A stretch of DNA of 64,000 nucleotides from Serpentinicella alkaliphila (GCF_018141405.1 NZ_CP058648.1:1875001-1939000), one strand, 5' to 3'; counted from the first letter of the stretch, positions 20,440-33,137 are shown. Notes: a model not told the origin generated them from the letters alone. Numbers and translations: made by a program.

Positions 20440-21585
20440 GTGGGTAGATGGATAATAATATTTTTTCTATTGATTATTAGTATATATTTTTTACTACATT
20501 ATTACATAGGTAAAAAAGGTTTGAGTATTCTGAATTTTAACAAATGTTCAAAAAATATATATTGGTTTTTTATCTATTTCTTAGGGTTTTCCTTTTTTTT
20601 AGGTAGGATAGGAAATGAGTATATACCATGGAATATAAGCACTTTACTTACCGTTATAGGAGCCTATTGGATAGGATTAATTGTATATTTGTGGATTTTA
20701 TTTATTGCAAAAGATATTGTAAATTTATTCGTACGTACTATATTTGGAAGACACAATATAATAGAAGAAAACAAAAAGCTTATTAATCTTACAATAATTA
20801 TATTGTCTGTAATACTTGTTGCTTACGGAGCTATTAATGCTAAGCGGCCACGGATTGTTGAATATTCCATTGATATTAACAAAAAAGTAGAAAATATTGA
20901 TCAAATGAAAGTAGTTCTGATCTCCGATTTACATATTGGGCAAATTGTAGGTAACAGATTTTTAAGAAATATAGTTAATATAGTAAACTCTTTGGAGCCT
21001 GATTTAATTCTAATACCAGGTGACATTATTGATGATAATCTACATGAAAATATACAGGTAAAGATAGGAGATATATTAAAGGATTTGAACTCAACCTATG
21101 GTGTCTATGCTTCATTGGGCAATCATGAGTTTATTGGGGGTCAAGCAGATGAAATAGAAGAGTATTTAAATAGTGTAAATATTAATGTTTTAAGGGATGA
21201 GGCTTTAAAAGTAGCTGATAGTTTTTATATTATTGGAAGAGAGGATAAGGCTAGTGAGAGGTTTACAAATATACACCGAAGAGAATTGTCGGATATTATG
21301 CTAGAAATAGACCGATTGAATCCTATATTTATGCTAGATCACCAACCAATAGATATAGTTATGGCTAGAGATGAAGGTGTTGATTTACAGGTTTCAGGTC
21401 ATACACATAGAGGTCAAATTTTACCCGGAAGATTTTTTACAAAGAGAATTTTTGATGTGGATTGGGGTTTATATAAGGAAAGCAGCTATCATCTAATAGT
21501 TACATCAGGAGCTGGTACATGGGGACCACCTATTAGAATTGGTACTAATTCTGAAGTAGTATTAATAAATATAAATTTTAACTAG
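20440..21585 (+). CDS. membrane-anchored metallophosphoesterase
   Basis: A 381-residue protein starting at GTG after TAGGGGTG. Residues 1-135 hold four or five membrane segments. The rest is a calcineurin-like phosphoesterase with all metal motifs: LISDLHIG near 165, PGDIID, SLGNHEF and VSGHTHRGQ. It resembles the YkuE/YaeI group, although those usually have one anchor, so the multi-helix N-terminus is longer than normal. The catalytic domain should face outside or inside depending on the helix number, which could not be settled. A bidirectional terminator follows. Confidence 0.87.
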   Translation: MGRWIIIFFLLIISIYFLLHYYIGKKGLSILNFNKCSKNIYWFFIYFLGFSFFLGRIGNEYIPWNISTLLTVIGAYWIGLIVYLWILFIAKDIVNLFVRTIFGRHNIIEENKKLINLTIIILSVILVAYGAINAKRPRIVEYSIDINKKVENIDQMKVVLISDLHIGQIVGNRFLRNIVNIVNSLEPDLILIPGDIIDDNLHENIQVKIGDILKDLNSTYGVYASLGNHEFIGGQADEIEEYLNSVNINVLRDEALKVADSFYIIGREDKASERFTNIHRRELSDIMLEIDRLNPIFMLDHQPIDIVMARDEGVDLQVSGHTHRGQILPGRFFTKRIFDVDWGLYKESSYHLIVTSGAGTWGPPIRIGTNSEVVLININFN

Positions 21586-21590
21586 TAAAA

Positions 21591-21614
21591 AACCACCTAG
21601 GGATTTAGGTGGTT
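21591..21614. terminator. bidirectional terminator
   Basis: The stem aaccaccta pairs with taggtggtt around a 6-nt loop, with A and T tracts outside. It lies between the convergent phosphoesterase and ABC permease genes. Confidence 0.85.
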
Positions 21615-21622
21615 CACTCATT

Positions 21623-22945
21623 TTATTCAGTTCGGATAGCCTCGAGGGCACTAAGCTTCATAGCGCGTCTGGCAGGATAGAATCCAGAAACCAAGCCAAC
21701 TATAGTAGTAAATACTAATGTTGCAAGTATTAACCATAGTGGAATTATAGATATTTTTGTATTTCCACCACCAGGCCCAAAGAAATTTATAAATCTAAAG
21801 CCAACAGAGTTTAATATGTAGGACGCTATTTTACTGAGTATTACTCCCAGAAGTCCACCGATAAAACCAATCATGCCTGCTTCAAATAAAAATAGTCTTC
21901 TTATATCTTTTAATGATGCTCCTATTACTTTCATAATACCTATTTCTCTAGTGCGTTCATATATCGACATAACCATTGTATTAGTAATACCTAAAGCTGC
22001 AACTAATAGTGATATGGCACCTATCCCACCCAGTACAGCCTGTAGAACAGAAGAAGTTTTTTGTAGTGAGTCTAAATAATCCGATAAACTATAGGCATTA
22101 AAGCCCATGTCTTTAATCTGCTGCTGTATTTTCTGTACTTCTTTTATATTTCCTACTTTTACCATAACCCTATTATATCCACTATGGGACTGAGACCTAT
22201 TATTGTTTCTATTATTCTGAGACTTATTATGTTCGTCTACCTTTTTCTTTAGTTGGGTAATAGGCATAAAGGCTGAGTAATCCTTCTCCCAATCCCCTTC
22301 CTGTAATATTCCTACTCCATTGATTTTGTAATGTTTAGGTTTTCCTTGATTTTCACTATATCCCATATCGAAGGTTAGTTCTAGCTTATCTTTCATAACA
22401 TTAACATTAGATTGTGGGGGTGGGCCATAACGCATTCTTGCTTTAGGGTTATAAAACTGTTGACTAACATGTGCCCCGAATACAACATTTAATGTATCCC
22501 CAAACTCTAGAAGTCTACCGTCATTTAATTTAAATTCAAATTGTTCCATAACATCAGGATTAATTCCTTTTATAGAAACATATGCTTCAAATTTACCTGA
22601 GATTATTTTGACGTGTGACTCCAAAATCGGTGTAACTGCTTCAACACCTGCTATTTCGGAAAATTTCCTTACGGCAGAATCATCCAAAACTAATTTTTTC
22701 TGTTGTGGGCCTGAGGGCTTTCCACCATCGTGGTACATATCATAGGGTGGATTTACATTAATTATGTTTAGGCTTCCCATTCGGCTTAATTCCTGTTTAA
22801 AACCTTCATTCATTCCAAAACCTAAAGAAACCATAGTTATAATAGATGCTGTGCCGATAATTACTCCAAGTATTGTCAAAAATGTACGTAATTTTCTTCT
22901 CCAAAGGTTTTTAATGCCCATTCTAAAAAGCTCTACACTATTCAT
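21623..22945 (-). CDS. MacB/FtsX-type ABC transporter permease
   Basis: A 440-residue permease with the MacB layout. There is one N-terminal membrane helix (FLTILGVIIGTASIITMVSL, about 21-40), a large extracytoplasmic domain to about 300, then three C-terminal helices of the FtsX fold. The motif TNTMVMSIYERTREIGIMKV and the last segment ending GFYPARRAMKLSALEAIRTE are diagnostic. The outer domain has a polar insert (DEHNKSQNNRNNNRSQSHSG). It works by transmembrane force transfer and not by a classical channel, by family. It overlaps the preceding gene of the operon by 8 bp and is the last of three genes. Confidence 0.92.
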   Translation of the reverse strand: MNSVELFRMGIKNLWRRKLRTFLTILGVIIGTASIITMVSLGFGMNEGFKQELSRMGSLNIINVNPPYDMYHDGGKPSGPQQKKLVLDDSAVRKFSEIAGVEAVTPILESHVKIISGKFEAYVSIKGINPDVMEQFEFKLNDGRLLEFGDTLNVVFGAHVSQQFYNPKARMRYGPPPQSNVNVMKDKLELTFDMGYSENQGKPKHYKINGVGILQEGDWEKDYSAFMPITQLKKKVDEHNKSQNNRNNNRSQSHSGYNRVMVKVGNIKEVQKIQQQIKDMGFNAYSLSDYLDSLQKTSSVLQAVLGGIGAISLLVAALGITNTMVMSIYERTREIGIMKVIGASLKDIRRLFLFEAGMIGFIGGLLGVILSKIASYILNSVGFRFINFFGPGGGNTKISIIPLWLILATLVFTTIVGLVSGFYPARRAMKLSALEAIRTE

Positions 22946-25001
22946 CTAGGAACATACCCTTCTCTTTGTTTTTTCTCTTTCTAATTAGAAATATTGCTAC
23001 TGCCATAGCAAGAAGTAATGAAACTCCTGAACTAGCCCAAATTAAAGTTTTTTTACTATTACTTTCAGGTGGAAACTTTTCTTGAAAATCCGGTGGCATT
23101 TCTTCAAAATGCATTTCTAATACATTCACAGAGAAATCTTTTCTTATCTCAATTTTTTCGCCAGCTGGATCATCATAGGTGAATACAATGCTTCCCTCAA
23201 GTTGTCCAGGAGATGTAGGAGTTACATATGCTTCGTAGTAATCGTTATTACCAGATTCAAAATTACCTACAAAGTAATTACCATTTTCAACACTGAAGTT
23301 TCCTTCTGTTTTAACCATTAAATTATATAGGGTAACCTTACCCATATTATAAAACTCTAGAGAAACCGGAAAGGGCTGTCCAACATATGCTTCAAAAGGT
23401 GGAATTGATAATTCACTAGTCTCAAGTCTAGTTGGTTGTATAACTGGGATTCCTATTAATTCCGATGCCTTATATTCATTTCCCTCCAAGTCCTCATATT
23501 CAAAGTTAGCTAAGATAGTATAAGTTTTTTGTTTTGCATCAGGTACAGTGTAAAGTTGAATATTTCTATCAACAACAGATTTTGGCTCTATATAATCTAT
23601 AAAGAAAGTATTACTACTGTTCACAGGAGTAAATACATTTCCACTTGTTTCAGTTTTTTCGTCAACTGTAAGATATATTTTTATATTTTGAACTGCCTTT
23701 TCACTATGGGTATTAAAGAAGGATAAATTTAAATTATAATTTTGTCCTGCCTTTACCATAGTTGGACTAGAGACATATTGATCAATAATAAGCTTTGGGA
23801 TAGATTTGCTACCGCTTATTTTAGAATTATTAACTGGTATAAAGACTTTATGAGTTTCTTCGTGTTTAGTATTGCTATCGTCTCTATATTCTAAGTGGAT
23901 GTCAATATCATGAAGTCCAGATTCAATTTTATCTGAAGCATGTAGAACATATGAAATATAGTTTTGATTACCACCTAAAATTCGAGTAATATGCTTTACA
24001 TTTGAAGAATTTAAAATAGTTAAACCATTAGTTTTTAATCCATTTAGGGTTATCTTTACATCCTTTGCCCCTAAACTTCCAATATTCTGTAATGTAAATC
24101 CTAAGGTTACAGTTTCTCCGGCTTGTGTAGTTGAAGGAGATAAATTAATCTCTTGAATCGAGAATTTTGGAAATGTATTTCTATTAACAATTTTGATAAA
24201 TAGTGTCTCTGAAGAATCAAAAGGGTTCCCATGAGAATTTGTAAACTTATAGCTTAGCTTAAGTTGGTATGTTTTTTCTTCTGCAGTAGGATTAACAAAA
24301 AAATCTAATTTGTACTCTCTTGAGCCATTCGCACTAATCGATGATATTGAATTAGATGTTGATTCAGTAAATTCAATAGGGACAACTTGTCCATCAAAGG
24401 ATGGAGTTATTACAATATTTTGAGCAGAGTGATTACTACTATTTTTAATAGTAATTGGTAAAGATACATTTTTACCAGCTTCTATTGTAAAGTTACTAGG
24501 AGTTGAGGCGGCTAGTCTAGGAACATTTTTAGTTGTATCTACCTCAGGCTCCTTCTTAGGCTCTGGGAGTTTTGCTGTTCTAATTCCAATATAATCAGTA
24601 ACCGTGAGTACTTCATCATTTTTAGTATAGGTTATTTTAACAGTAAGCCTTTGATTTGAGCCACCAGTATAAATAATACGAATAGGACTGTCAGATATTG
24701 AAGTATCTATGCCATTAGTTAGTTCATCAGCAACAAAAATATTAGAACCTCTATTATCAGGATAAAAAGACCCATTATCTAAAACCGTGACATAGATGTT
24801 TTTTAGTGTTTCCCCAGATCTATTCAGAAGTTTAAGAGTTAAATCAAAGGGGTCTCCTTCATATACTGAGGATGAAAGGCCATTGTGCTCTGATATATAT
24901 ATATCTGTTAGACTTCCAGTTTCAGTAGAGTATGTATATAGAGATGAATTAATATTAAATAATAAAGTAAAAACAATTAGTATAGTCAATATCCTTTTCA
25001 A
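22938..25001 (-). CDS. large CARD-like repeat surface protein with C-terminal membrane anchor, partner of a MacB-type ABC system
   Basis: A 687-residue secreted protein starting at TTG directly after the stop of the ATPase gene. Residues 1-25 are a signal peptide (ILTILIVFTLLFNINSS). About five beta-sandwich repeats of the CARDB or COG1361 type follow, each with a pattern such as AGETVTLGFTLQNIGSLGA, then NLNLSFFNTHSEKAVQNIKI and PVSLEFYNMGKVTLYNL. A helix at 655-675 and a basic tail anchor it. It sits between the ATPase and permease genes of a MacB-like operon in the place where an HlyD-type adaptor usually is. It could be the extracellular arm of the system. The ligand is unknown. Confidence 0.8.
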   Translation of the reverse strand: MKRILTILIVFTLLFNINSSLYTYSTETGSLTDIYISEHNGLSSSVYEGDPFDLTLKLLNRSGETLKNIYVTVLDNGSFYPDNRGSNIFVADELTNGIDTSISDSPIRIIYTGGSNQRLTVKITYTKNDEVLTVTDYIGIRTAKLPEPKKEPEVDTTKNVPRLAASTPSNFTIEAGKNVSLPITIKNSSNHSAQNIVITPSFDGQVVPIEFTESTSNSISSISANGSREYKLDFFVNPTAEEKTYQLKLSYKFTNSHGNPFDSSETLFIKIVNRNTFPKFSIQEINLSPSTTQAGETVTLGFTLQNIGSLGAKDVKITLNGLKTNGLTILNSSNVKHITRILGGNQNYISYVLHASDKIESGLHDIDIHLEYRDDSNTKHEETHKVFIPVNNSKISGSKSIPKLIIDQYVSSPTMVKAGQNYNLNLSFFNTHSEKAVQNIKIYLTVDEKTETSGNVFTPVNSSNTFFIDYIEPKSVVDRNIQLYTVPDAKQKTYTILANFEYEDLEGNEYKASELIGIPVIQPTRLETSELSIPPFEAYVGQPFPVSLEFYNMGKVTLYNLMVKTEGNFSVENGNYFVGNFESGNNDYYEAYVTPTSPGQLEGSIVFTYDDPAGEKIEIRKDFSVNVLEMHFEEMPPDFQEKFPPESNSKKTLIWASSGVSLLLAMAVAIFLIRKRKNKEKGMFLDE

Positions 25002-25706
25002 TTATATTATCCCCCTTTGATTCTGCTCTTCTATTCTTTCAATTTCTCCATCCTTAATATAGACAACCTTGTCTGCATAGTGACTTATTTCTATATCATG
25101 AGTAACTATTATTAAAGTCTGGTTACTTTGACGAGCAAAGTTGGTAATTAGTTCCATAATATCTAATGTAGTTTTTGTATCTAAGTTTCCTGTAGGCTCA
25201 TCAGCAAAAACTATCGATGGTTTAGAAATAAATGCTCTCGCAATACTAACCCGTTGCTGCTGGCCGCCACTCATCTCTGAGGGTTTGTGGTTTAATCGAT
25301 CACCGAGGCCAACGGATTGGAGCATTTTCGCTGCTGCTTTAATACGATTCTTTTTAGAGACGCCTCTAAATATTAATGGAAGACTTACGTTTTCTATTGC
25401 TGTAAGCATAGGTAACAGGTTATAGGATTGAAATACGAAGCCTATATTTTCTTGTCTGAATTTAGCTAACTGTTTTTCATTCATCTTTTCAATAGATTTG
25501 TTCTTAATAATTATCTCACCTTTAGTAGGTTTTTCTAATCCGGCCATCAGGTTTAATAGGGTACTTTTGCCTGAGCCAGAGGTGCCTAGAAGGCAAATAA
25601 ATTCCCCCTGTTTAATTGATAGGTCAACATTTTTAAGGGCATATATTTTCTCATCGCCCATTCTATATATTTTTTTTACATTGTTTAATTGTATAATATT
25701 TTCCAA
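25002..25706 (-). CDS. ABC transporter ATP-binding protein, MacB/LolD type
   Basis: A 234-residue ATPase. Walker A is GTSGSGKST (about 41-49), the Q-loop FVFQSYNLLP, the signature MSGGQQQRVSIARAF and Walker B IVFADEPTGNLD. The EPTGNLD element marks the LolD/MacB/FtsE group, not nutrient importers. Translation starts at TTG, with GGGGG upstream. It heads the three-gene operon and is joined without a gap to the repeat protein gene. Confidence 0.93.
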   Translation of the reverse strand: MENIIQLNNVKKIYRMGDEKIYALKNVDLSIKQGEFICLLGTSGSGKSTLLNLMAGLEKPTKGEIIIKNKSIEKMNEKQLAKFRQENIGFVFQSYNLLPMLTAIENVSLPLIFRGVSKKNRIKAAAKMLQSVGLGDRLNHKPSEMSGGQQQRVSIARAFISKPSIVFADEPTGNLDTKTTLDIMELITNFARQSNQTLIIVTHDIEISHYADKVVYIKDGEIERIEEQNQRGII

Positions 25707-25886
25707 AAATTAACCCCCTTAACTGAAAATACCAAGTAGCATATTAATTATACTCCTAAGTTATTTAAAGTTAAAGTGGTGCACCTATAATTTTATGATT
25801 AATTTTTGACAAAGTTTCACCATTGTGTATTAAGAAGAATAGTATAATATCACAAGTTCTTGTATTACAAAAAAGGAGGAAAAAAA

Positions 25887-26105
25887 ATGAATTATGAGTG
25901 CAGACCAATTCATCCACCGATCATGCATTATCAAATTTACCCAATTCCATTTATGCCAGTCGATCCATTATTAGCCCATGCATATGTACCATACCAAACC
26001 TATATGATGGCATATCCATTGCCAGAGGCTTTAGATAAAGGGACGTTATTCCCAGAATTATATTTTCCTTATGTTCCTGAGGATAAGAAATGGGGGGGAT
26101 GTTAA
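25887..26105 (+). CDS. cotJA: spore coat associated protein CotJA
   Basis: About 72 residues from ATG 25887, which follows AAAGGAGG; the upstream in-frame TTG has no site. The protein is Pro- and Tyr-rich: HPPIMHYQIYPIPFMPVDPL, YVPYQTYMMAYPLPEAL, and FPELYFPYVPEDKKWGG at the end. This is the CotJA type of spore coat component, small and without membrane helices. It overlaps the cotJB start by a few bases, so translation is coupled. In Bacillus the operon is made in the mother cell under sigma-E; whether the same holds here cannot be read reliably from the upstream DNA. Confidence 0.88.
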   Translation: MNYECRPIHPPIMHYQIYPIPFMPVDPLLAHAYVPYQTYMMAYPLPEALDKGTLFPELYFPYVPEDKKWGGC

Positions 26106-26362
26106 TGAAACACGATAGAGTTGCCCTTTTACAAAGATTACAGGAAGTTGAGTTTGCTGCCTTAGAATTAAATCTATATTTGGATACTCATCCATTAGAT
26201 CAAAATGCTTTAATGCAGTATAATCAACTTGCAAGTCAATTGCAAATGTTGAAACAGCAATATGAAATGGCTTATGGGCCACTTTTGAACTTCGGGTTTT
26301 CACCAAGTCAATTCCCTTTTAAGTGGCTTGAAGGGCCATGGCCTTGGGAACGTCAATACTAA
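26099..26362 (+). CDS. cotJB: spore coat protein CotJB
   Basis: About 87 residues. ATG 26099 and ATG 26105 are both possible starts; a GGGGGGA lies just upstream and the gene overlaps the cotJA stop. The core LLQRLQEVEFAALELNLYLD then THPLDQNALMQYNQLASQL is the CotJB signature. The C-terminus WLEGPWPWERQY is a Trp-rich tail often seen in the family. It is a structural component of the spore coat and is thought to need CotJC. It is 22 bp before cotJC. Confidence 0.9.
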   Translation: MLMKHDRVALLQRLQEVEFAALELNLYLDTHPLDQNALMQYNQLASQLQMLKQQYEMAYGPLLNFGFSPSQFPFKWLEGPWPWERQY

Positions 26363-26383
26363 TAGATAGGAGGAGGCAAGTTT

Positions 26384-26956
26384 ATGTGGATTTATGAAAA
26401 GAAACTTCAGCATCCAGTTAGAATAGAAAAATGTGACCTTAGAATGGCAAAATATTTGTATACTCAATATGGAGGTCCGGATGGTGAACTATCTGCTGCT
26501 ATAAGATATTTAAATCAAAGATACACTATTCCGACAAATGAAGCAAAAGCATTACTTACGGATATCGGAACTGAGGAACTAGCACATGTTGAAATGATTG
26601 CAACTATGATTTATCAGCTGACTGAAGATGCTACTGTAGAACAATTAGAAGCAGCTGGGTTAGGTGGAAACTATGCAATTAGAAATAGAGCACTTTTCCC
26701 AGCGGATGCTAATGGTGTGCCTTGGACAGCAACATATTTTCAAGCCCATGCAGACCCAATTGCAGATTTACATGAAGATATGGCTGCGGAACAAAAAGCT
26801 AGAACGGTATATGAAAATCTACTTAATATGACAGATGACCCAGGTATGAAGGATACTTTAAGGTTCTTACGCGAAAGAGAAGTAGTTCACTTCCAAAGAT
26901 TTGGTGAAGCTTTGAGAATCGTTCAAGAATACCAACAAGCTAAAAAATACTTTTAG
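26384..26956 (+). CDS. cotJC: CotJC, spore coat manganese-catalase-family protein
   Basis: A 190-residue manganese catalase-like coat protein. The fold's metal site residues are carried by the helices with TDIGTEELAHVEMIATMI and, later, DMAAEQKARTVYENLL and REREVVHFQRFGEAL, each with Glu and His spaced as in dimanganese catalases. It begins at ATG after TAGGAGGAGG. It is the final gene of the operon and is followed by a terminator at 26971. A second, degenerate copy of its 3' half is found at 34855-35024. Confidence 0.94.
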   Translation: MWIYEKKLQHPVRIEKCDLRMAKYLYTQYGGPDGELSAAIRYLNQRYTIPTNEAKALLTDIGTEELAHVEMIATMIYQLTEDATVEQLEAAGLGGNYAIRNRALFPADANGVPWTATYFQAHADPIADLHEDMAAEQKARTVYENLLNMTDDPGMKDTLRFLREREVVHFQRFGEALRIVQEYQQAKKYF

Positions 26957-28011: not shown

Positions 28012-29181
28012 TTATTTATGAGCATACCTCTTTTGTTTAATTATCACTAATGCAATGGCAAATAAGGCTATAGCAAAAGCTAACTGGACTAGTATACCAT
28101 GGATTATCGGTTGTAGGGTAGCTTGGGTAATGCTAGTAAGATCTGCTATAGTATCATTGACCTTTATATACCAGAATATCGGGTTAAAGGTTCCTAGAGT
28201 TCGTAGTGTATCACTCAAAAGGGCTTGAGGTACAAAGGAACCACCTAAAAATGATAATCCCAGGGATAGACAGTTTCCTATAGGATCAATTGAATTTTTA
28301 GTTGCAAAGGTAGCAACTAAAAAGCTTATACTTAAACAAAGTACCGTCAAAACAAATGAATTAACTATAAATAATAATGCACCAGTCTGGTTAAAAGTAT
28401 TCTTATTAATGACAAAAGCTAAAACAACAAATATCAGCCAAATAATAAGGGCCATTGACAAATTACTGAGAATAAGCTGGATATTATAGCTTTTAATACT
28501 AATAGGTGCACAATAGTTACGCATTTTAATGTCTTTATTATTAAATATCAGCATTATTCTACCTACCATGGATATAAGCATAGCTATTAATATATAGGAT
28601 AAAAAGTTAAAGTATCCTTTTAGGTTAGACAAACTAGTATCATGTGCATTGAATCTATTTATAAAAGATACATTTACTTCTGTTGAAATATCAGTAATAA
28701 CTTTCTCATGCACCTCTTCTAGAGACATTTCGGGGTGTGCCAGAATATATAGTCTTGCAGTATTTAAATAGTTATCTATAAGTCTAATTGCGTATTGTGA
28801 GCTTACTGAATCTGGAACATACATCGTTTTAACCTTTGGTTGATCTGCTGAAATAAAATCATTTTGGAACCCTTTAGGAATTGTTACAATAAACTCTGTT
28901 TGTCGGAAGAATAGTGCATCTTTAATGCTTTCCTCATCTCTTTTAATTTCTACTGGTCTTGAAATGCTTTTAATGTAACTTTCTAGCCCATTTGACAGTT
29001 GTGTATTATCGTCATTTATAACAGAAATCTTAACTTTAGAAAGTTCAAATACATCTTCCATCTGGGTTAATCCCCTGTCTGAGAATAAGATTGAGAGGCC
29101 AACGAAAATAATGGTATATATTAAAAATACAGTTAGAAATTTTCGGGGTATTATTTTACAAAAAAGTTTAGATGCTTGCAT
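28012..29181 (-). CDS. ABC-2 type permease, YhgE/YbhR-like, second permease
   Basis: A 389-residue ABC-2 membrane protein. One helix at 15-33 is followed by an outer domain (about 40-180) containing KISVINDDNTQLSNGLESYI, then five to six helices in 185-385. The stretch SLGLSFLGGSFVPQALLSDT just before the last helices is the ABC-2 hallmark. It begins at ATG after AAGGAGG, overlapping the end of the other permease gene by 14 bp. The two permeases probably form a heterodimer with the ATPase at 30294. The direction is probably export. The gene is the last of the operon. Confidence 0.87.
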   Translation of the reverse strand: MQASKLFCKIIPRKFLTVFLIYTIIFVGLSILFSDRGLTQMEDVFELSKVKISVINDDNTQLSNGLESYIKSISRPVEIKRDEESIKDALFFRQTEFIVTIPKGFQNDFISADQPKVKTMYVPDSVSSQYAIRLIDNYLNTARLYILAHPEMSLEEVHEKVITDISTEVNVSFINRFNAHDTSLSNLKGYFNFLSYILIAMLISMVGRIMLIFNNKDIKMRNYCAPISIKSYNIQLILSNLSMALIIWLIFVVLAFVINKNTFNQTGALLFIVNSFVLTVLCLSISFLVATFATKNSIDPIGNCLSLGLSFLGGSFVPQALLSDTLRTLGTFNPIFWYIKVNDTIADLTSITQATLQPIIHGILVQLAFAIALFAIALVIIKQKRYAHK

Positions 29182-30283
29182 ACTTTTGCCTCCTTAAAAT
29201 CAGAATTGTAGAGGTGCAGAAGATTACACCTAAGCTGGCTAATAGGCCAAGATTGAGAAAATATCTATCAAAAGTATCGTAATAATATAGGGCGTAAAGA
29301 CCATCGGTAATTAGGTTTGCAGGATTAATATAGGCAATGATAGGAGCTTTTTCTTGGATGAAATATTTCACCTGGATAACCATTAAACCAGATAAAAAAC
29401 ACATAACCATAACGATATTAGAAACTAACATATCTTTAATTTCTGATTTAAACTTTGTTAGTAAGCCGAACAAAGAACCAAACATGGTCCCAGTAAAACA
29501 TCCTACTAAACATAGAACCCCTATATGTATGATTCTATCGCCAAAGTCTACATTAAGAAATTTTGATATATAGGTGATTGCAATTATTACTGACATAAAT
29601 TGAAAACATATAGTGGCAGAGATCACCGACAAAAATGCCTTTAGTTTATGTGTAGGTGCAACATTTAACCTTGCTGCAAGTGGAGATTGATTAGCTTGAA
29701 TTATTGATATAGCATAGCTTCCTGCAACTGCAGAGAAAAGGCAGGTCATTGCAAGAAGAGCAAAATAGTAAACAACAATTATGTTCATTGCGCTACTTAA
29801 AGGGACTTCCTCTATAAAGCTTTCATTAAAACTAATATCTTCTAAGAAACCCATTTGAATGAGTTGAGGATTACCATCTATAATATTATAGATCGTTGCA
29901 GAAATTTGAACAAAATTATCGAGAAAGACTTTTGAAATGGACTGGTTAAGACCAGAACGGAATATCACAAGCTCAAGCCCATCTGTATTCTTTATATAAC
30001 CTGTAATTGCTCTATTTGATAAAAGATCTTTTGCCTCTGCTTCAGTTGTGTGTGATATATTGAAAAGATTACTTTCATTCATCGCTTTCTCAAGTCCTAA
30101 GGGCATTGTATGATCTGTAACTATTGCGATTTTAACCGGGTTAAAGACTTCATTAGACATAACGTTTGCAAAGGCTAAATTAAAAAATGTTGCTAAAATA
30201 AGAGGAAAGCAAAGCATCCAGAATAAGGACATCTTATCTTTTATTAGTGATTTAAAGCTATATTTAAAAATATGAAATGACAT
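29168..30283 (-). CDS. ABC-2 type permease, first permease
   Basis: A 371-residue ABC-2 permease. It has the N-terminal membrane helix FWMLCFPLILATFFNLAFAN, an extracytoplasmic domain of about 130 residues (VKIAIVTDHTMP...LEDISFNESF), then five or six helices including MTCLFSAVAGSYAISIIQAN and CFTGTMFGSLFGLLTKFKSE. It follows GGAGGT and is placed between the ATPase and the second permease. It is similar in layout, not sequence, to its neighbour, as in heterodimeric lantibiotic or drug exporters. Substrate unknown. Confidence 0.87.
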   Translation of the reverse strand: MSFHIFKYSFKSLIKDKMSLFWMLCFPLILATFFNLAFANVMSNEVFNPVKIAIVTDHTMPLGLEKAMNESNLFNISHTTEAEAKDLLSNRAITGYIKNTDGLELVIFRSGLNQSISKVFLDNFVQISATIYNIIDGNPQLIQMGFLEDISFNESFIEEVPLSSAMNIIVVYYFALLAMTCLFSAVAGSYAISIIQANQSPLAARLNVAPTHKLKAFLSVISATICFQFMSVIIAITYISKFLNVDFGDRIIHIGVLCLVGCFTGTMFGSLFGLLTKFKSEIKDMLVSNIVMVMCFLSGLMVIQVKYFIQEKAPIIAYINPANLITDGLYALYYYDTFDRYFLNLGLLASLGVIFCTSTILILRRQKYASI

Positions 30284-30293
30284 AGTATACCTC

Positions 30294-31226
30294 CTAATCT
30301 CTTAATTCTTTTCCTGTTATTTCAAGGAAAACATCATTAAGAGTTGGTAGTTCAGAATATATTTTACCGTAGCTTATATCATTTTCCGCAATGAAGCTTA
30401 TTATATTAACAAGATTACTTGCCCCATTTCTTTGTTTAATGGTTAAGGTATTTTCTTTTAAATCTATATCAATAACATTAGGTATTTCACGCATTCTTTT
30501 TAAATGATCTTCATTGATATTAAATGTTTCAACGACGATTTTTTCACCAAGTGAGATCATACCTTTAACTTCTTCCTTAGTCCCTGAGGCAATTACTTTA
30601 CCTTTATCCAAAATTGCAAGCCTAGAGCAAAGCTGTTCGATTTCTTCCATGTAATGGGATGTATATATAATGGTTGCTCCCTCTTCATTTAGTCTCTTAA
30701 TACCTTCTAAAATATTATTTCTGCTTTGAGGATCAACAGCCACTGTTGGTTCATCTAAAATTATTAGTTTTGGATTATGGGCAATCCCGCAGGCAATGTT
30801 AAGTCTTCTTAAAAGGCCACCACTTAATCCTTTTGGATAAAACTTCACAAAGTCTTTTAAAGCTACAAATTCAATTGCCTGTTCCACCAGTTCTTTACGT
30901 TTTTTCTTATCGGTTACATAAAGACCGCAAAAGTAATCAATGTTTTCGTAAACATTAAGTTCTTCGAAAACTGCTACGTTTTGCATAACAATTCCTATAT
31001 CGCGTTTTATGTCATATGCAGCTGGCTTCATCTCTTTGCCAAAGATTTTGATATTACCCTTATCAAATTTTAGTAAAGATAGTAGACAATTTATAGCTGT
31101 TGTTTTACCTGAACCATTAGGTCCTAATAGTCCAAAAATTTCACCTTCCTTGATCTCAATGTTTAAATGGTCAAGAGCTATTAGATCTCCATATCTTTTT
31201 ACTAGATTTTCAATTTTCACTATCAT
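30294..31226 (-). CDS. ABC transporter ATP-binding protein (DrrA-like)
   Basis: About 310 residues from ATG 31226, which has GGAAAGGG nine bases upstream; an ATG at 31235 directly abuts that site. Walker A is GPNGSGKTT, the signature LSGGLLRRLN and Walker B LIILDEPTVAVDP with TSHYMEEIEQLC. The extra C-terminal part (about 220-310) is the regulatory tail of the daunorubicin/bacitracin-type export ATPases. It heads the operon and is divergent from a two-component system. Confidence 0.92.
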   Translation of the reverse strand: MIVKIENLVKRYGDLIALDHLNIEIKEGEIFGLLGPNGSGKTTAINCLLSLLKFDKGNIKIFGKEMKPAAYDIKRDIGIVMQNVAVFEELNVYENIDYFCGLYVTDKKKRKELVEQAIEFVALKDFVKFYPKGLSGGLLRRLNIACGIAHNPKLIILDEPTVAVDPQSRNNILEGIKRLNEEGATIIYTSHYMEEIEQLCSRLAILDKGKVIASGTKEEVKGMISLGEKIVVETFNINEDHLKRMREIPNVIDIDLKENTLTIKQRNGASNLVNIISFIAENDISYGKIYSELPTLNDVFLEITGKELRD

Positions 31227-31295
31227 AAATATCATCCCTTTCCTTTTTTTTATAATCCTATTGTAATAAAAATATCTAGAATACTGCAGTGTAAT

Positions 31296-31318
31296 TTGTC
31301 ATTAGATTCATATGACAA
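31296..31318. promoter_or_regulatory. candidate operator palindrome in the divergent ABC/two-component promoter region
   Basis: TTGTCAT at 31296-31302 and ATGACAA at 31312-31318 form a perfect 7-bp inverted repeat with a 9-bp spacer. It lies in the 166-bp gap between the exporter ATPase gene and the histidine kinase gene. It is a reasonable binding site for the LuxR-type regulator at 32511, but that pairing is an inference. Confidence 0.5.
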
Positions 31319-31334
31319 TTGTAATATTTACTTA

Positions 31335-31362
31335 TTATTGATAAGCTTTGCTGTGCTATAAT
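31335..31362 (+). promoter_or_regulatory. candidate promoter of the histidine kinase/response regulator operon
   Basis: TATAAT at 31357-31362 is exact. TTATTG at 31335-31340 is 16 bp upstream and only moderately like the -35 consensus. The start codon is at 31393 behind GGGAGGTG. It is about 16 bp from the palindrome at 31296-31318. Confidence 0.5.
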
Positions 31363-31392
31363 TAAAGTAAAATTAATCCAGGGAGGTGAATC

Positions 31393-32457
31393 ATGGGTAA
31401 TATATTAAATAAGTTGATTATTTTTGTGGGAACCTGTGTACTTCTTTTTTTTGAATTTACTCCCCATGAAGGTATTATCGCCATAGCACTAGCTATTGCT
31501 ATAAGTGGACTATTAGAATATTTCAGTAATGAGAGATTAGCTAAATGGTTATTTATTGGTTTACTAATATTATCAGGATTTTACGTTCAATTTGTATTTT
31601 TCATACCCTTAATAAGTTATGACCTACTAATATCAAAAAACCAAATGCTAACACTATTGGCACTTTTTCCATATGTATTGCATCTTAATAAATTTAATTC
31701 AGGTGCAATTATGGGGGGATTAATTGTTATTTCTGCAATTGTCTATTTCTTAAAAGTAAGAGAAATTAAAGAAAGGAAACTAAGAGAGGATTATATAAAT
31801 CAAAGGGATTATCTAACAGAACTTTCAATTTCACTAGAAGAAAAGATAAATGAGTTAGTTAGTAAGCAAGATGTAGAGGTTAATCTTGCTACATTAAATG
31901 AGAGAAATAGGATTGCGCGAGAAATACACGATAATGTGGGGCATCTTCTTTCGAGCTCAATTTTACAAATTGGAGCCGTTATAGCTATAAGTAAAGATGA
32001 GAATACTGTAAAAAATCTTGAAGTGGTTAGGGATACATTGAATGAAGGTATGAACTCCATAAGAGAAAGTGTACACAACTTACATGACCATTCTATTGAC
32101 CTTTATGGTGAGATAAATAAACTAATTAAAACTTTTACTTTTTGTAAAATAAAATTAAATTATGAAATAATTGGAGATATGCCTGCCAAGGCTAAATACG
32201 CCATTATAGCAATTATTAAAGAGGCACTATCAAATGTTATGAAACACTCCAACGGTGATCAGGTTTCTATAAGTTTATATGAACACCCGAAGCTTTTTCA
32301 ACTCATTATATATGACAATGGGAATAAAAAAATGGACCCTGATAATTTCAAAGGAATGGGTCTTGAAAGTATAAAGCAACGGGTTGCATCACTAAATGGG
32401 ATAGTGAATTTCGAACAATCAAAAGGGTTTAAAATATTTATTTCTTTTATGAAATAA
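31393..32457 (+). CDS. sensor histidine kinase, DesK/NarL-type
   Basis: A 354-residue kinase. The N-terminal 1-122 holds about five membrane segments with very short outer loops, so it probably senses within the membrane. A helical linker follows, then the HisKA_3 dimerisation part with His179 in RNRIAREIHDNVGHLLSS. The ATPase part has AIIKEALSNVMKHSNG (N box) and FKGMGLESIKQRV (G box). It is 12 bp before the upstream extension of the regulator gene, so the pair is one unit. It is divergent from the ABC exporter, the usual sign that it controls that exporter, perhaps in answer to a membrane-active compound. Confidence 0.9.
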   Translation: MGNILNKLIIFVGTCVLLFFEFTPHEGIIAIALAIAISGLLEYFSNERLAKWLFIGLLILSGFYVQFVFFIPLISYDLLISKNQMLTLLALFPYVLHLNKFNSGAIMGGLIVISAIVYFLKVREIKERKLREDYINQRDYLTELSISLEEKINELVSKQDVEVNLATLNERNRIAREIHDNVGHLLSSSILQIGAVIAISKDENTVKNLEVVRDTLNEGMNSIRESVHNLHDHSIDLYGEINKLIKTFTFCKIKLNYEIIGDMPAKAKYAIIAIIKEALSNVMKHSNGDQVSISLYEHPKLFQLIIYDNGNKKMDPDNFKGMGLESIKQRVASLNGIVNFEQSKGFKIFISFMK

Positions 32458-32510
32458 AGACTTATGAGGTGCATGCAACTAAACTTATATATATATTAAT
32501 GGGAGGTACC

Positions 32511-33137
32511 ATGAAAATAATAATTGTGGACGATGATATTCTTGTTTCTTCATCTTTAAAAACTATCATAGAGTCTAATGATGGATTTGAAGTGTTGGCA
32601 GTAGCAAATAGTGGAGAAGACGCTATAAAACTATATAAAGAGCATCATCCTGAAATACTTTTAATGGATATAAGAATGGGCAAAATTAATGGGCTAGAAG
32701 CAGCTGCAGAAATATTAAATACATTTCCTGATGCAAAAGTTCTTTTCTTAACCACTTTCGCAGATGATGAATATATTATTAAAGCATTGAAGATTGGGGC
32801 TAAGGGTTACATATTAAAACAACATTATAACAGTATCGTACCAGCACTTAATGCAGTTTATTGTGGACAGAGTGTATTTGGCGAGGAAATTATCACCAAG
32901 CTTCCATCAGTTATGACTAATAAAGAAAATAATAAAGATTACCAATCATTTGGGATTTCAGAAAAGGAATTTGAAATTATTTCATTGGTTTCAAAAGGTC
33001 TATCAAATAAAGAAATAGCAAAAGAATTGTATTTAAGTGAGGGAACCATAAGAAATTACATAAGCGTAATTCTAGAAAAACTAGAATTACGAGATCGAAC
33101 CCAACTAGCTATTTTTTTCTTCAACCACCTACTTTAG
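32511..33137 (+). CDS. LuxR/NarL-type response regulator
   Basis: About 208 residues from ATG 32511, which has GGGAGGT; the frame extends upstream to 32469 without a site. The receiver domain has Asp7/Asp8 (IIVDDD), phospho-acceptor Asp53 in LLMDIRMG, and Thr/Lys in FLTTFADD and KGYILKQ. A GerE-type helix-turn-helix follows near 145-200 (FEIISLVSKGLSNKEIAKEL). The kinase gene is directly upstream. The likely target is the divergent exporter promoter with the palindrome at 31296. Confidence 0.92.
   Translation: MKIIIVDDDILVSSSLKTIIESNDGFEVLAVANSGEDAIKLYKEHHPEILLMDIRMGKINGLEAAAEILNTFPDAKVLFLTTFADDEYIIKALKIGAKGYILKQHYNSIVPALNAVYCGQSVFGEEIITKLPSVMTNKENNKDYQSFGISEKEFEIISLVSKGLSNKEIAKELYLSEGTIRNYISVILEKLELRDRTQLAIFFFNHLL

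Follow-up and report, generated by a model that had tools for sequence, protein, structure and literature searches.

The window analysed here, 64,000 nucleotides of the Serpentinicella alkaliphila genome, carries on its minus strand (21623-25706) three ORFs in the order A, M, P (Table 1). Translation of the window showed that A and M abut directly and that M and P overlap by 8 bp (22938-22945), the ATG of P lying within the terminal Asp-Glu codons of M, ctaGATGAATAG. The gapless operon of ATPase, anchored repeat protein and permease described in the original prediction was thus found as claimed. AAGGGGG-type ribosome sites precede the TTG starts of both A and M.

Table 1. Positions of the features of the A-M-P locus in the window
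Feature	Position	Strand	Basis
A, LolD/MacB-type ABC ATPase, 234 aa, TTG start	25002-25706	-	ABC_tran, LolD profile
M, secreted repeat protein, 687 aa, TTG start	22938-25001	-	ORF, profile search, alignment, AlphaFold
P, MacB/FtsX-fold permease, 440 aa, ATG start	21623-22945	-	MacB_PCD and FtsX, model, fold matches
Conserved core of M, domains 4 and 5, residues ~396-630	23118-23816	-	29-homologue alignment, AlphaFold borders
Membrane helix and cytosolic tail of M, residues ~650-687	22941-23054	-	alignment, AlphaFold
Promoter-like site TTAACT-16-TATAAT 5' of A	25747-25774	-	position as sole argument
Symmetric hairpin AACCACCTAGGGATTTAGGTGGTT between P and the convergent gene	21591-21614	.	position and stem length

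The hairpin beyond P is probably a terminator shared with the convergent gene; terminator-like sites were no commoner in the scan than expected by chance, and this assignment was made from position and stem length. Promoter-like sites of the TTAACT-16-TATAAT kind likewise did not exceed the chance frequency. The convergent gene (20440-21585, plus strand) encodes a calcineurin-like phosphoesterase (YaeI/LpxG-like) whose N-terminal part is hydrophobic. Divergent from the operon, cotJA/cotJB/cotJC-like spore-coat genes lie at 25860-26956 (plus strand), with CotJC matching the Mn-catalase family at 1e-66; these genes suggest that the organism probably forms spores. At 28012-33137, genes for an ABC-2 ATPase and two ABC2_membrane_3 permeases (minus strand) diverge from a NarL-type two-component pair (plus strand).

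In the translation of A the Walker A (GTSGSGKST), signature (MSGGQQQR) and Walker B (FADEPTGNLD) motifs are all intact. The protein matched ABC_tran at 4e-38; its nearest NCBIfam profile was LolD (2e-76), with a score of 256 bits that is below the equivalog cut-off of 308, and the closest solved sequence was archaeal MJ0796 (8e-74). The permease P matched MacB_PCD (PF12704, 1.1e-21) and FtsX (PF02687, 9.3e-21), both above cut-off. In its model (pLDDT 86.2, pTM 0.71), TM1 and TM2 form long stalks, and a helix at the N-terminus, an alpha/beta domain on the extracytoplasmic side and the helices TM3 and TM4 make up the remainder. The best fold matches, Streptococcus pneumoniae 5xu1 (5xu1_M, Z 26.3) and Bacillus subtilis YtrF 9o9x (Z 26.2, 411 residues), were tied, and were followed by LolE and MacB. 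By sequence, the top solved relative was YtrF (phmmer 6.5e-31, full length), with MacB close behind. With a four-TM permease with long stalks and an ATPase with intact motifs, A and P have the features of type VII (MacB/FtsX-fold) systems.

The repeat protein M

CARDB and NEW3 are generic domains of many unrelated surface proteins. M belongs marginally to the CARDB domain proteins, exceeding the Pfam gathering score (1.3e-5, 25.8 bits against 22.7), and NEW3 was slightly under its cut-off. A six-frame search of the whole S. alkaliphila genome with CARDB gave no match. Among 29 M proteins, the CARDB (PF07705) and NEW3 (PF10633) profiles matched 24 and 22, respectively, at E <= 0.001. Pfam and NCBIfam offer no model for the M protein or for its conserved core containing the PVNSSNTF loop, and a fold search with M returned generic Ig-like chains only (TRAP-beta, transglutaminase C-terminal domains, alpha-2-macroglobulin), which gave no functional lead.

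The AlphaFold model of M, built from 29 sequences (mean pLDDT 82.9, pTM 0.39), is confident for the single domains and not for their mutual arrangement. It contains beta-sandwich domains at residues ~34-139, 163-272, 280-391, 404-521 and 526-628, and a single C-terminal membrane helix at residues 650-680. The N-terminus, as read from the sequence, resembles a Sec signal and has no lipobox cysteine. M is predicted to be a type I membrane protein with a Sec signal peptide, an extracytoplasmic Ig-like chain, a membrane helix and a short cytosolic tail. The signal peptide, the approximate number of five repeats and the single C-terminal helix of the earlier description are all accounted for. So is the statement that M is not an HlyD-type adaptor: in the profile search M, a beta-sandwich chain anchored at its C-terminus, matched neither an HlyD nor a lipoyl family.

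Conservation in the alignment of 29 homologues is strongest in the last two domains, which include the PVNSSNTF loop (residues 459-466), and in the membrane helix and the tail, which consists of a basic cluster followed by an acidic LDE end. The number of outer domains differs among homologues (median length ~678 aa, maximum 1078). A conserved membrane-proximal and a variable distal part would fit an arm docked at its membrane end. An acidic residue was present among the last three positions of M in 222 of 257 overlapping M/P pairs and also in 19 of 25 non-overlapping ones; the acidic end is thus not simply a by-product of the P start codon sharing bases with M.

Distribution and linkage of the three genes

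Homologues of M were found in 11/20 genomes of the family, 62/291 of the class and 64/398 of the phylum. Counted per order, the values were 131/249, 33/63 and 24/25, the third order being queried with a homologue of M. A genome scan with a subset of the M alignment detected M in 80 named records, all Bacillota by title; hosts include Alkaliphilus peptidifermentans, A. serpentinus, Syntrophomonas wolfei, Anaerotignum, Lutispora, Fenollaria and Soehngenia. The S. alkaliphila genome itself (3.26 Mb, one contig) has one M gene.

From Clostridia, 304 distinct M loci were obtained, 269 of which had enough DNA on either side to be assessed. The A-M-P order on a single strand was present in 247 of these 269 (earlier counts were 242/263 and, with a simpler gene caller, 142/165); the loci were collected by similarity to the M of the window, and more distant homologues could behave differently. 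M and P overlapped or abutted in 257 of 282 pairs. The commonest spacing was the 8-bp overlap seen in the window (105/282), which suggests translational coupling.

The presence of P follows that of M. Among the 20 family genomes, a P orthologue occurred in all 11 with M and in none of the 9 without it. These orthologues were 50-65% identical and full length except at a contig end in one genome (G014); the nine genomes without M had partial P matches at 35-42% identity, or none. No recurrent flanking gene was detected beyond the trio, the commonest neighbouring family, encoded on the opposite strand, being present in 14 of 128 loci. Since the flanking genes do not recur, the conserved module consists of the three genes A, M and P alone. 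These data uphold the proposal that the three genes belong to a joint system: the order is nearly constant, M and P are contiguous, within the family P occurs exactly where M does, no further neighbour is conserved, and a pattern in which M mostly lacks ABC genes was not seen.

Nearly all loci deviating from A-M-P were artefacts or cases of M adjoining another ABC transporter. Several of them (L071, L146, L203, L227, L239, L253) seem to be due to a broken reading frame, an additional small ORF or the end of a contig. A true variant, with the order M-A-P, is L101. In L068 and L072 a second M directly follows A-M-P and is itself followed by ABC-2-type genes and by a membrane protein, respectively. 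In L083, L085 and L112, M was accompanied by an ABC-2-like permease and, at a greater distance, by an ABC ATPase; L083 has a GntR gene 5' of M, and the other two have similar small ORFs. In L114, L116, L118 and L119, possibly also in L117 (at a contig start), M adjoins an FtsX-type permease of 650-936 aa. In L259 and L265, M is followed by A and then by a double-FtsX permease of 779-785 aa, and L263 is a cut locus. The M homologues at L259, L263, L265, L114, L116, L118 and L119 are short and the permeases Bce-like or ADOP-like; at L259 a histidine kinase gene lies immediately 5'. Among the surveyed loci no close M homologue was found clearly apart from ABC genes.

Covariation and relation to known ABC systems

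Residue covariation between M and P was analysed by the mean-field method with 262 pairs (effective number ~203). In a control with 218 A-P pairs the same method placed at the top ATPase residue 154 with P341, which adjoins the cytoplasmic coupling region. The best M-P pair was M670-P411 (membrane helix with TM4), and the next plausible pairs included M589-P381 and M586-P373, which connect the last beta domain to the shoulder; implausible pairs, e.g. M493-P343, scored equally high. Over all columns, individual scores were within the nulls, obtained by simulating columns independently on the same tree, and the top pairs were not enriched for topologically compatible residues. An i/i+4/i+8 pattern at P373/377/381 in the first list faded with more sequences. 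When the top five scores were averaged for two regions (helix-TM, and domain 5/linker against P366-402), each mean was matched by 1 of 40 nulls and the two jointly by none; across the regional tests, 1-2 of 40 nulls attained the real values. Since both regions were picked after sight of the first pair list, these values are taken as a hint that M may lie near the TM helices and the TM3-TM4 shoulder of P rather than near its large outer domain. Pseudo-likelihood covariation with few iterations gave topologically impossible M-P pairs and was discarded.

Like A and P, YtrEF of B. subtilis (PDB 9o9x/9o9y) consists of a separate ATPase and a four-TM permease. The ytr operon is described in PMC12772383 as ytrGABCDEF, without an Ig-chain gene. 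It combines a GntR repressor and ABC-2 genes with YtrE/YtrF, whereas the operon of the window comprises A, M and P only, with M inserted between ATPase and permease. The Gram-positive MacAB-like systems (S. pneumoniae 5xu1, YknXYZ) share with A-M-P a MacB-fold permease, a separate ATPase and an extracytoplasmic third subunit. That subunit is, according to PMC5985334, an HlyD-type adaptor with an N-terminal helix; M, in contrast, lacks an HlyD domain, and its anchor is a helix at the C-terminus. The E. coli MacB equivalog is an ATPase-permease fusion, whereas here ATPase and permease are encoded by separate genes, and the two scores against PRK10535, 132 and 235 bits, are below the cut-off of 966.

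BceAB belongs to the type VII superfamily, as does A-M-P, and a few M homologues adjoin double-FtsX permeases (~780-936 aa). Bce permeases have ten TM helices in a single chain (PMC11466899); the BceAB permease is ~640 aa long, whereas P has 440 aa and four TM helices. LolCDE and FtsEX have the permease fold and a LolD-like ATPase in common with A-M-P, but the operon of the window encodes neither a lipoprotein acceptor nor a wall hydrolase, and the NCBIfam scores are below the cut-offs for these families (lolCE, 83 bits against 362 for P; LolD, 256 against 308 for A). Taken together, A-M-P would work in the MacB manner but differs from MacAB in its third subunit, from Bce-type transporters in its permease and from Ytr in its operon, in agreement with the original prediction of a design distinct from MacAB and BceAB. 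The open literature, as far as accessible, yielded no description of such an ABC module with an Ig-like arm.

Possible working mode of the A-M-P complex

A, M and P very probably form one cell-envelope machine. We lean, by a narrow preference, to a type VII ABC complex in which M is a dedicated Ig-like, C-terminally anchored external arm for mechanotransmission. Mechanotransmission is an established mode of the MacB/FtsX fold, and in MacB, LolCDE, FtsEX and BceAB ATP-driven motion can be relayed outward without a substrate crossing the membrane (PMC5985334, PMC11466899). In the simplest stoichiometry, A2P2 would carry one M on each P. The helix, membrane-proximal domain and tail of M would dock onto P, perhaps on its outward-facing TM3-shoulder-TM4 side, and the outer domains would extend to the wall zone. 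When A binds and hydrolyses ATP, the stalk helices of P would shift, this motion would be handed to M, and M would then act on a partner in the wall or at the membrane surface; no substrate would need to cross the membrane. M homologues are also found with ABC-2 and double-FtsX permeases, so that docking would not be bound to one permease. In the flanks of the surveyed loci there was no neighbour gene or regulator pointing to the task of A-M-P.

Rather unlikely, in our estimate, is a role of M as the subunit that binds or recruits the substrate of a type VII exporter or antibiotic-protection system; at the membrane surface it would capture a peptide or lipid, which it would then pass to the outer domain of P. 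P does resemble the MacB, pneumococcal and Ytr permeases, some relatives of these permeases act in antimicrobial-peptide resistance (PMC5985334), and the distal domains of M differ in number, as a target-facing part might; but M has Ig-like chains only and no binding-protein fold, and resistance or biosynthesis genes do not recur beside the trio. Regulation of a cell-wall hydrolase or synthase in the manner of FtsEX, with M as a built-in external lever or scaffold, is judged unlikely: the FtsX-type fold of P, and the fact that lipid II-cycle inhibitors induce the operon of YtrF, its top solved relative by sequence, would suit it, but no hydrolase gene recurs beside the trio, and deletion of ytrF had no clear phenotype (PMC12772383). 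By this analogy, with induction on one side and the lack of a clear deletion phenotype on the other, a cell-wall role of A-M-P is plausible. That M is an independent surface protein sharing just an operon with A and P, as the generic occurrence of CARDB and NEW3 in unrelated surface proteins might suggest, is highly improbable given the near-invariant order, the overlap, the joint presence and absence of M and P, and the fact that even aberrant M genes adjoin another ABC transporter.

The reading of M as a mechanotransmitting arm can be extended. The pairing of M relatives with ABC-2 and double-FtsX permeases raises the possibility that the arm, not the motor, defines function. M might then be one of a general class of Ig-chain arms, anchored at their C-terminus and interchangeable among MacB-type, double-FtsX and ABC-2 motors, an idea that we regard as doubtful; if true, the Ig-chain arm would be a mechanical output module common to several ABC folds. 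Single-membrane bacteria have several type VII ABC systems for which, to our knowledge, no output is known. A-M-P offers a tractable case, being widespread and tightly linked and having a known partner of the motor, a visible external subunit with a docking core separable from its variable outer part.

Elsewhere in the S. alkaliphila genome (609500-619000, locus L433), the gene of an HlyD-family protein (419 aa) adjoins those of two 401-aa MacB-type permeases; this MacB locus with its HlyD adaptor means that both designs coexist in one genome.
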